A stretch of DNA of 64,000 nt from an uncultured Lachnospiraceae bacterium (lineage in GTDB: Bacteria > Bacillota > Clostridia > Lachnospirales > Lachnospiraceae): assembly GCA_947174705.1 (NCBI GenBank), contig CAMWKB010000002.1, positions 1 to 64,000 of the forward strand, given 5' to 3'. The number at the start of each line of letters is the position of its first letter. The stretch's first letter is position 1. The position numbers and the translations under genes are program-made. Below are positions 18,277 to 22,686 of the stretch, one piece after another. The notes under the pieces were generated by a model. That model saw nothing but the letters and a program-made list of their open reading frames with translations. It was not told the origin of the DNA and did no database searches.

Positions 18277-18468
18277 CTACAGAGCAGCTATCTGTGCCAT
18301 TAAATCATCAATATTCATGCCGTGCACCATAGCGGCCTCTTCTAATGACTCGCCCTGTGCCGAAGGGCAGCCTAAGCAATGCATACCCGCATTCATAAGT
18401 ATAGGCGCCACATCAGGGTTTGTCCTTAAAATCTCTCCAATTGTCATCTCTTTCGTTATTTCTGCCAT
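18277..18468 (-). CDS. DUF1858 domain protein
   Basis: '[43 protein letters not shown]' with CLGC motif. Confidence 0.87.
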
Positions 18469-18733: not shown

Positions 18734-20773
18734 ATGAGACCAGAATGGAAAGATTTTGTAGGCGGCAAGTGGGAGAATGAAGTAAACGTACGTGACTTCA
18801 TTCAGAGAAACTATCACCTTTATGAAGGCGATGACTCTTTCTTAGCTGCTCCTACACAGAACACAAAAGACTTATGGGCACAGGTTCTTGATTTACAGAA
18901 ACAGGAACGTGAAGCAGGCGGTGTACTTGACATGGATACTAAGGTAATTTCCACAATTACATCCCACGGTCCCGGATATCTGGACAAGAGCAAAGAAACA
19001 ATCGTTGGTTTCCAGACAGATAAGCCTTTCAAACGTTCTCTTCAGCCTTACGGCGGTATCAGAATGGCAGAAAAGGCTTGCTCCGACAACGGTTATGAAG
19101 TTGACCCTGAGATCAGCGAGTTCTTCTCCACACACAGAAAAACACACAATGCAGGCTGCTTCGATGCTTATAATCAGGAAATGAGAGCTTGCCGTTCATC
19201 ACATATCATCACAGGTCTTCCGGATGCTTATGGACGTGGACGTATCATCGGCGACTACAGACGTGTTGCTCTGTATGGTATCGATTATCTTATCGAAGAC
19301 AAACAGGCTCAGAAGGATTCTACAGGACGTGTTATGACAGACGATGTAATCCGTCTTCGCGAAGAACTTTCAGAGCAGATGGTAGCTCTTAAGCTTATGA
19401 AAGAAATGGCTGCTTCTTATGGCTGCGATATTTCTAAACCGGCTACTAACGTACAGGAAGCTATCCAGGCTACTTACTTTGGTTATCTTTGTGCAGTTAA
19501 AGAGCAGAACGGTGCTGCTATGTCTCTTGGACGTACTTCTACATTCCTTGACTGCTACGCAGAAAGAGATTTGGCTAACGGAACATTCACTGAAGAGCAG
19601 ATTCAGGAATTCGTTGACCACTTCATTATGAAATTACGTTTGATCAAATTTGCTCGTACACCTGAATACAACCAGATTTTCGCAGGCGATCCGGTATGGG
19701 TAACCGAATCTCTCGGTGGTGTTGGTGTTGACGGACGTCCGTTAGTATCTAAGATGAGCTTCCGTTATCTGCATACTTTAACAAACTTAGGACCTTCTCC
19801 GGAGCCGAACTTAACAGTTCTCTGGTCTACCAGACTTCCTGAGAACTGGAAGAAATACTGTGCTAAGATGTCCATCCAGACTTCTTCAATCCAGTATGAG
19901 AACGACGACCTTATGAGAGTTACCCACGGTGATGACTACGGTATCGCATGCTGCGTATCTTCTATGGTTATCGGTAAAGAAATGCAGTTCTTCGGCGCTC
20001 GTGCAAACCTCGCTAAATGTCTGCTTTACGCATTGAACGGCGGTGTTGACGAAGTTACCAAGAAACAGGTTGGACCTAAATATCGTCCTGTTGAAGGTGA
20101 TGTTCTTGATTATGATGATGTATATGCTAAATTCATGGATATGATGGAATGGCAGGCAGACGTATATGTAAATACTTTGAACATCATCCACTACATGCAT
20201 GACAAATACTGCTATGAGAGAGCAGAGATGGCTCTTCATGACAGAGACGTAAAACGTTACTTCGCAACAGGTGTTGCTGGTCTGTCTATCGTAGCTGACT
20301 CTTTATCAGCAATCAAATATGCAAAGGTTGAGCCTATCAGAGATGAAGACGGCGTTATCGTTGACTTCAAGACAACAGGCGAATTCCCGAAATATGGTAA
20401 TGATGATGACCGTGTTGACCTTATTGCACAGGAAATCGTTCATAAGTTCATGACAGCAATCAGAAGACACCACACCTACAGAAACGGTGTACCTACAACT
20501 TCTATCCTTACCATTACTTCTAACGTAACATATGGTAAGGCTACAGGTAATACACCTGACGGACGTAAGAAAGGCCAGCCTTTCGCTCCCGGTGCTAACC
20601 CGATGCACGGACGTGATACTCATGGTGCAGTAGCTTCCTTATCTTCAGTATCTAAACTTCCGTTCAAGGATGCTCAGGATGGTATTTCTAATACATTTAC
20701 CATTATCCCTGGCGCACTTGGTAAAGAGGATCAGGTATTTGCAGGAGATATCGAACTTGACTTAAATAAATAA
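18734..20773 (+). CDS. pflB: Pyruvate formate-lyase core subunit lacking the C-terminal glycyl-radical domain
   Basis: 679 aa; active-site '[27 protein letters not shown]'; ends '...[30 protein letters not shown]', at the boundary where canonical PFL continues into the glycyl-radical domain. Confidence 0.93.
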
Positions 20774-20782
20774 TAAGGCGAA

Positions 20783-20805
20783 AAGAATCGCCTATGGCGA
20801 TTCTT
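20783..20805 (+). other. Intercistronic hairpin after pfl core stop
   Basis: aagaatcgcc-tat-ggcgattctt, 10-bp perfect stem, no following U-run. Confidence 0.6.
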
Positions 20806-20837
20806 CCTAAAAAATGTAAAAATAAAAGGTGGTTGTT

Positions 20838-21041
20838 ATGGACGATAAACAGATGATTGATGATTTTATCAAGATGATGGATTCTGGCATGGCACAGGGC
20901 GTGGGACATGTTAATGTCGATGTGGATACAGAATCCAGTAATTCAAAAGAAGTACAGACAATGGGCTGTACAGACTGTTCCAGAACACCATTGGCATGCA
21001 GTGTTCCAACACTGGAACAAGGTCTTGATGATTTTCGTTAA
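20838..21041 (+). CDS. 67-aa Cys-rich protein between split-PFL subunits, N-terminal half resembles glycyl-radical domain
   Basis: Start preceded by 'aaaggtgg'; MDDKQMIDDFIKMMDSGMAQGVGHVNVDVDTESSNSKEVQTMGCTDCSRTPLACSVPTLEQGLDDFR. Confidence 0.75.
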   Translation: MDDKQMIDDFIKMMDSGMAQGVGHVNVDVDTESSNSKEVQTMGCTDCSRTPLACSVPTLEQGLDDFR

Positions 21042-21103: not shown

Positions 21104-21349
21104 ATGGCAGAAACAAACACAGCTCAGGTAGATAACCTGGTATCATTATTAGATGGTTATGCAACAAAAGGCGGTCATCACCTTAACGTAAATGTTCTTA
21201 ACAGAGACACTTTATTAGACGCTCAGAAACATCCTGAGAACTATCCTCAGCTTACAATCCGCGTTTCCGGATATGCTGTTAATTTCATTAAATTAACACC
21301 GGAACAGCAGGCTGATGTTATCTCTCGTACATTCCATGAGAGCATCTAA
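21104..21349 (+). CDS. Stand-alone glycyl-radical domain protein (PFL C-terminal domain, GrcA/YfiD-like)
   Basis: '[59 protein letters not shown]'; radical Gly in RVSGYAV; RBS 'aaggagg'. Confidence 0.95.
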
Positions 21350-21383: not shown

Positions 21384-21426
21384 AAAAGCTGCACATTCGT
21401 TATATTTAACGGTGTGCAGCTTTTTT
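21384..21426 (+). terminator. Rho-independent terminator after the glycyl-radical domain gene
   Basis: aagctgcac...gtgcagctttttt hairpin with U-run. Confidence 0.8.
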
Positions 21427-21514: not shown

Positions 21515-22270
21515 ATGCAAGGAAGAATTCACTCATTAGAAAGTTTTGGTACGGTAGACGGTCCGGGCGTCCGCTTTGTTGTATTCGTTCAGGGCTGTCC
21601 CATGCGATGTGCATATTGCCACAATCCTGATACGTGGGAGATGAACGGCGGCACTTTAATGGAGCCGGAATATATCATTGAGCAGTATGAGCGGAATGTA
21701 AGTTTCTATAAAGGAGGCGGAATCACCGTAACAGGCGGGGAACCGCTTATGCAGGTTGACTTTCTCATTGACCTTTTTACACTTGCTAAGAAAAAAGGAA
21801 TTCACACCTGTATCGATTCCTCCGGAATTGCTTACAAACCGGACGGCAATCCCGAATGGCTTGCCAAACTTGATAAATTAATGACGCTGACCGACCTTGT
21901 TATGTTAGATATCAAACACATTGACCCTGAAAAGCATAAGGAACTTACCAGTCAGCCCAACGAAGGCATACTTGCTTTTGCAGCATATCTGAATGAAAAA
22001 AATGTCGATATGTGGATTCGCCATGTTATTGTTCCGGGGCTTACCGATGATGATGAATATTTGTATAAGCTTGGATATTTTATCGGCCAGTTCAAAAACC
22101 TGAAAGCATTGGATGCCCTTCCTTATCACACAATGGGCGAAAATAAATACCAGAAGTTAGGCATGGAATATAAACTTAAAGGCGTTCCCGCTATGGAAAA
22201 GAAACAATTACTTGAGAAAAAAGAAGTTATCCTTGAAGGTATACGCAAACGCCGCGCGGAACAACAATAA
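21515..22270 (+). CDS. pflA: Pyruvate formate-lyase activating enzyme (radical SAM)
   Basis: 'GRIHSLESFGTVDGPGVRFVVFVQGCPMRCAYCHNPDTW', CxxxCxxC radical SAM motif, 'GGGITVTGGEPL'. Confidence 0.95.
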   Translation: MQGRIHSLESFGTVDGPGVRFVVFVQGCPMRCAYCHNPDTWEMNGGTLMEPEYIIEQYERNVSFYKGGGITVTGGEPLMQVDFLIDLFTLAKKKGIHTCIDSSGIAYKPDGNPEWLAKLDKLMTLTDLVMLDIKHIDPEKHKELTSQPNEGILAFAAYLNEKNVDMWIRHVIVPGLTDDDEYLYKLGYFIGQFKNLKALDALPYHTMGENKYQKLGMEYKLKGVPAMEKKQLLEKKEVILEGIRKRRAEQQ

Positions 22271-22332: not shown

Positions 22333-22431
22333 ATGGAAACAATTATAACAATTGCTTTTGTAGTAGTTGCAGGAATAGCTATTATCGGCAATCTTATTAA
22401 GATGAAAAAGAAAAAAGATGACGAGAAATAA
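22333..22431 (+). CDS. 32-aa single-pass membrane microprotein
   Basis: METIITIAFVVVAGIAIIGNLIKMKKKKDDEK; RBS 'ggaggagg'; below the ORF-track cutoff. Confidence 0.55.
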   Translation: METIITIAFVVVAGIAIIGNLIKMKKKKDDEK

Positions 22432-22515
22432 GCTTGTATATTCTTCATTTTTATATTAGAATATAAGTGATAAATTTTATCACTATGCTTATACAACTAT
22501 AAGGAGGATATGATT

Positions 22516-22686
22516 ATGGCATACGTAATTGGCGATGCTTGTGTAGCATGCGGCGCTTGTGAAGCTCAGTGCCCGGTAGGAGCTATCAGCATGGGAGATG
22601 GCAAATTTGAAATCGATGCTGATAAGTGTATCGATTGTGGTTCTTGTGCAGGAACATGCCCGACAGGCGCTATTTCTCAGGCTTAA
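22516..22686 (+). CDS. 2[4Fe-4S] ferredoxin
   Basis: MAYVIGDACVACGACEAQCPVGAISMGDGKFEIDADKCIDCGSCAGTCPTGAISQA; two CxxCxxCxxxCP motifs; RBS 'aaggagg'; missed by the ORF track (56 aa). Confidence 0.95.
   Translation: MAYVIGDACVACGACEAQCPVGAISMGDGKFEIDADKCIDCGSCAGTCPTGAISQA

Follow-up and report, generated by a model that had tools for sequence, protein, structure and literature searches.

The 64,000-nucleotide stretch analyzed here (the window) comes from an uncultured Lachnospiraceae bacterium (GCA_947174705.1, contig CAMWKB010000002.1, positions 1 to 64,000) and carries a locus for a split pyruvate formate-lyase (PFL), in which the genes for the PFL core, a small open reading frame (ORF), the free glycyl-radical domain GrcA3 and the PFL activase follow one another in this order (Table 1). 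In the genome assembly, at about 85% completeness, no PFL-like gene besides this core was found. The small ORF, which codes for the cysteine-containing protein studied here, was confirmed by direct reading with the sequence given in a preliminary description of the window, and so were its position between the two PFL subunits and its own ribosome binding site, AGGTGG, 5 nt before the ATG. It is a real, conserved gene: of the 37 genomes of its genus, 35 have it, among them the genome of the window, and the two without it are drafts (67% and 89% complete); free grcA3 adjoins it at nearly all loci of the genus. Furthermore, comparison with relatives in the named collection gave a median ratio of nonsynonymous to synonymous substitution rates (dN/dS) of about 0.06, a sign of strong purifying selection, in the 25 of 76 comparisons where the ratio could be computed, dS being high or saturated. 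A chance ORF is ruled out by this conservation and by the dN/dS values. Additionally, a phage origin was considered and no credible phage relative was found, and the TGA codon of the relative in G463, checked as a possible selenocysteine codon, is a plain stop. No Pfam or NCBIfam family matched the small protein above cut-off and none of the family libraries searched covers its family; our literature search, made in a limited paper collection, found no paper on the small protein, nor on split PFL, GrcA3 or GrcA in Lachnospiraceae.

The distribution of the family is tied to the free radical domain. When a profile of 12 members was searched against 294 genomes of the order, the family was found in 54 of them, across several families, and these are 54 of the 73 genomes with free GrcA3 versus 0 of the 221 without it (Fisher p 3e-43; because genomes are counted as independent in this test, the p-value is overstated, but the pattern is unaffected). 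The conservation in relatives with split PFL that had been looked for is therefore present, and the idea that the small gene and split PFL always occur together stands in part: the small gene was found only with free GrcA3, but 19 split-PFL genomes do without it. Outside the order, a class-wide sample contained two relatives (G463 and G379), both at split-PFL loci and one of them in the order core-grcA3-small, and no relative was found in a phylum-wide sample beyond the class. As in an accessory subunit, occurrence is thus restricted to one glycyl-radical enzyme, with the genes adjacent except in genus g60; at the PFL locus of L169, which belongs to this genus, grcA3 comes after the activase gene. 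The small gene of G271 (L161:3147-3314, minus strand) ends early after GCTDCAK, without the second conserved Cys and VPTL, and is possibly a decaying copy. As separate observations, solitary second GrcA3 copies (L176-L182) lie away from any PFL core in G189, G201, G210, G216, G225, G259 and G269, genomes that already have one GrcA3 at the PFL locus, and look like spare-part copies. A second family of proteins of about 73 residues has a similar layout (MNDEEMIAEIMNHLDSESKQGVFRMSV...QCCNMYGRPASETVNLLDMYTD; G000 contig C5:31413-31634, that is L031:3414-3635, with relatives in L034-L038); it is not at a PFL locus, is matched weakly by the small-protein profile (E 6e-4) and is possibly a distant paralog.

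On profile comparison, the small protein is homologous, over its first 30 or so residues, with the beginning of the radical domain. The ungapped alignment of 23 residues contains exactly the 7 identities counted before (D, D, G, H, N, V and V), hhalign of the small family against GrcA3 gave a probability of 96.7% (E 3e-10, 36 columns), and the independently made NCBIfam model of GrcA3, NF038360, matches 14 of 16 members weakly (best E 4.8e-6). In addition, the next-best hits of the small-protein profile are the starts of real radical domains (E down to 6e-6). The resemblance is significant for the family; the window protein alone would fall short, with 13.5 bits at a cut-off of 158 (E 0.057, model positions 3-30). 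These comparisons agree with the earlier view of the protein as a diverged partial duplicate. In E. coli PFL, the counterpart of the copied segment is roughly residues 681-709 (alignment numbering), a helix followed by strand beta-10. The copy stops before the radical loop; the RVSGYAV loop is absent from the window protein, as had been noticed, and likewise from every aligned member. The small protein thus resembles GrcA/YfiD in being a small free protein beside PFL with the N-terminal helix and beta-10 strand, but it differs in having a Cys tail, in lacking the radical loop and the C-terminal helix, and in its score far below the NF038360 cut-off. In E. coli, YfiD supplies the beta-10 strand to the PFL barrel (PMC8683613), and since the copied part is this same helix and strand, docking of the small protein at the radical-domain site of the core is plausible.

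The other half of the protein is a conserved Cys tail. Over 118 distinct family members, C47 is found in all 118 and C54 in 117, A53, P57 and T58 are also essentially invariant, and G62 and D64 are strongly conserved. The C-x2-C-x6-C motif pointed out in the preliminary description has that spacing in the window protein, but only its second and third Cys are conserved in the family, the first being Cys in 100 of the 118 members. The invariant pair is spaced C-x6-C or C-x5-C and the conserved block runs on beyond the last Cys (ACSVPTLxxGxD). Most chains have three Cys (95/118), some two (18/118) and a few four (5/118).

What is new here is that split-PFL cores carry Cys tails of their own where the small gene is absent and none where it is present. 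The core tails of the 19 split-PFL genomes without the small gene were read directly, and 18 could be resolved, one contig being too short; 17 of these 18 have two or more Cys in the tail (e.g. ECGNQACNIPNIMESIDNE). Tail Cys occur in 0 of 74 cores beside a small gene, many of the 74 coming from one genus. The small gene and the core Cys tail are mutually exclusive. One style of core tail reads C-x4/5-AC-x-IPN (EECGNQACNIPNIMESIDNE and GAGCGPNEACNIPNLNV) and another DCACCEPN or DCLCCEP, with ECCSGGACDGATLFEGLDRE besides these two main styles. The free small protein of G379 reads NECNDGKNACGIPN, with ACGIPN like the core tails, and by this motif bridges the free and core-borne styles. Two PFL cores of the split kind are deposited in the PDB (38la and 38lb), so other groups may be studying split PFL, and the solved core 38lb has KPDCACAAD in its tail, which is readable in part. 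In the core tree the Cys-tailed cores do not form one clade (approximately unbiased test, p 1.4e-42) and supported branches force at least three changes. Fused PFLs have a Cys-free linker in 18 of 19 cases, the exception being L174 (TCGCEEVTC); four full-length fused PFLs (L173, L174, L175 and L203) nest within the split-PFL clade, which suggests a re-fusion of core and radical domain. The motif accompanies an untethered radical domain and is found either on the core or on a piece like the part of the radical domain that is seated in the core. In the simplest account, the Cys tail would act at the open site of the core, to which a docking segment would deliver it in trans.

Our preferred reading, held tentatively and at somewhat less than an even chance, is that the small protein is a dedicated third component of split PFL, which would dock on the open core and whose Cys pair would keep or make the core cysteines reduced. 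According to this, while the core is without GrcA3, be it before activation or following oxygen damage and swap-out, the small protein would fill the open site, its N-terminal half binding where the radical domain binds through the copied helix and beta-10 strand. The C-terminal thiol pair (C-x5/6-C, then VPTLxxGxD) could then reach the exposed active-site cysteines and keep them reduced or re-reduce them, GrcA3 would displace the small protein when the enzyme is reassembled, and in lineages without the small gene the Cys tail on the core C-terminus would do the same job in cis. A related picture, possible rather than probable in our judgement, is of a mimic of the radical domain that would alternate with it on the core and carry a redox-active Cys tail to the open active site, a similar tail being core-borne in several lineages. 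The docking site, the displacement and the thiol chemistry are all inferred from the gene anatomy described above, and the most likely chemistry for the Cys tail appears to be that of a redox-active pair of thiols which protects the open active site. In this regard, the core carries an adjacent Cys pair, IACCVSS, and neither the window copy of GrcA3 nor the alignment consensus contains Cys; a disulfide between the small protein and the window GrcA3 is therefore excluded, which makes the core the more likely thiol partner. The active-site cysteines of IACCVSS would be the obvious partners, and their protection or re-reduction the most economical chemistry.

Class I ribonucleotide reductase has a C-terminal Cys tail of tested function next to its thiyl-radical active site. 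The thiol pair of split PFL would work in a comparable way. The proposed likeness would lie in a Cys pair in a C-terminal tail beside such an active site, the tail being here on the core or on the small protein, with a core-tail form that includes C-x4-AC. In contrast to the reductase, where the tail works in cis, the tail is here often a separate protein with a putative function, and the sequences are unrelated as far as known.

Several results weigh against this preferred reading. The split PFL of L165 has neither the small gene nor a Cys tail, and genus g60 (L170, L171 and L172) carries the small gene far away from the PFL locus, next to a YitT-like gene and proB/proA. Independent pairs that differ in gene and tail go in opposite ways, but there are only three supported pairs (p 0.25), too few for significance. 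The two core-tail styles differ and a common origin is unproven, and the strong conservation of VPTLxxGxD hints at a specific surface for binding, something more than thiol chemistry alone. Moreover, AlphaFold models of the core with the small protein, and of both with GrcA3 (L073 in-frame read-through, genus-level alignments), reached mean predicted local distance difference test scores of only 31 and 37 and are unusable.

Among the alternatives, the one that survives best, though we consider it unlikely, is a placeholder and recognition stub that would supply a barrel strand in trans, stabilise the empty core and mark it for loading with GrcA3, with the Cys tail in a secondary role as anchor or redox switch. 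Helix and beta-10 are exactly what has been copied, and in oxygen-cleaved E. coli PFL the 696-733 stub, which contains beta-10, is required for good YfiD binding and rescue (PMC8683613); there, however, the stub is part of the core chain, unlike the separate gene with a Cys tail found here. Lineages without the ORF keep the Cys motif on the core and not the strand copy, so the strand is not indispensable, and the placeholder role proposed in the preliminary description is probably not the whole story: the Cys tail is the apparent working part and the radical-domain-like part would be its docking device. A safe quencher, in which the glycyl or thiyl radical would receive a hydrogen atom or an electron from the Cys pair when oxygen or a lack of substrate threatens, so that the enzyme is left intact and inactive instead of cleaved, is improbable. 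It would fit a Cys tail that belongs to an oxygen-sensitive core, but a small protein seated at the radical-domain site could not meet the docked glycyl radical, and fused PFLs, which run the same oxygen risk, are mostly without the motif.

An Fe-S or metal-binding accessory subunit, as in benzylsuccinate synthase and 4-hydroxyphenylacetate decarboxylase, is distinctly unlikely as well. Cys-containing [4Fe-4S] accessory subunits of 7-10 kDa are known in both enzymes (PMC12590467), and the C-x2-C-x6-C of the window protein and the three Cys of core tails such as DCACC could suggest a similar role. Like the beta and gamma subunits of the former enzyme and the small subunit of the latter, our protein is small, contains Cys and is tied to a single glycyl-radical enzyme; unlike them, it has a PFL host, a radical-domain-like N-terminal half and no significant similarity to the solved Fe-S subunit chains (best Fe-S hit E 1.5). 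With only two invariant Cys, and 18 of 118 members having two Cys in all, the family does not show the at least four cluster-ligand Cys per chain of such subunits, which weakens the earlier suggestion that one subunit binds a metal or an Fe-S cluster; a cluster held jointly by two subunits is compatible with the sequence. Finally, action on the activase, as a decoy or recruitment factor for this radical S-adenosylmethionine (SAM) enzyme, is very improbable: the small protein mimics part of the activase substrate and is encoded one gene away, but the activase recognises the radical loop, which the small protein lacks, and the similar Cys motif on the core itself points to the core as partner.

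The Cys tail alternates between a free carrier and the core and is usually missing from PFLs with a fused radical domain, a pattern which suggests that the open core needs protection when its radical domain can be exchanged. PFL is central to anaerobic gut fermentation and is destroyed by oxygen. Most glycyl-radical enzymes, PFL included, have been described as single-polypeptide homodimers, and more accessory subunits may await identification (PMC12590467). The small family is a concrete candidate for such a subunit in a large gut lineage; if the preferred reading is true, it would be an unrecognised subunit of an abundant gut enzyme and a maintenance device for glycyl-radical enzymes with an exchangeable radical domain.

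Table 1. Features of the split-PFL locus in the window.
Feature	Positions	Strand	Evidence
Split PFL core, 679 residues, no radical domain, Cys-free C-terminus	18734-20773	+	TIGR01255, 1089 bits, positions 2-665 of 744
Stem-loop separating core from small ORF	20776-20808	+	fold -16.1 kcal/mol, z -2.7
Ribosome binding site AGGTGG of small ORF	20827-20832	+	read directly, 5 nt before ATG
Small Cys-tail protein, 67 residues	20838-21041	+	conserved family, purifying selection
Radical-domain-like segment, residues 7-29 of small protein, helix and strand similar to beta-10 of PFL	20856-20924	+	profile comparisons; E. coli counterpart structure (PMC8683613)
Conserved Cys tail, residues 44-65 of small protein, GCTDCSRTPLACSVPTLEQGLD	20967-21032	+	conservation over 118 distinct members
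Free glycyl-radical domain GrcA3, 81 residues, RVSGYAV loop, no Cys	21104-21349	+	NF038360, 161.2 bits, cut-off 158
Likely intrinsic terminator after grcA3, GCTGCACA...TGTGCAGC then TTTTTT	21388-21426	+	read directly from sequence
PFL-activating radical SAM enzyme (activase)	21515-22270	+	TIGR02493, 299 bits, cut-off 231.75

The stem-loop after the core gene possibly has a putative role in mRNA processing or differential expression, and no Rfam family matched an RNA element at the locus. The likely terminator after grcA3 is not on the list of the terminator scan, its loop exceeding the limit of that scan. Divergent from the core gene lies a gene for a DUF1858 protein with a CLGC motif (18277-18468, minus strand), which may be part of the PFL pathway; a DUF1858 gene is also found near split or fused GrcA3-type PFL in L157, L166, L174 and L186. 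Downstream of the activase gene, a 32-residue peptide (22334-22432) with a strong ribosome site is probably a single-span membrane protein, and it is followed by a two-cluster ferredoxin (22516-22686) that recurs 3' of the PFL loci in L156, L157, L163, L166, L174, L185, L186 and L188.
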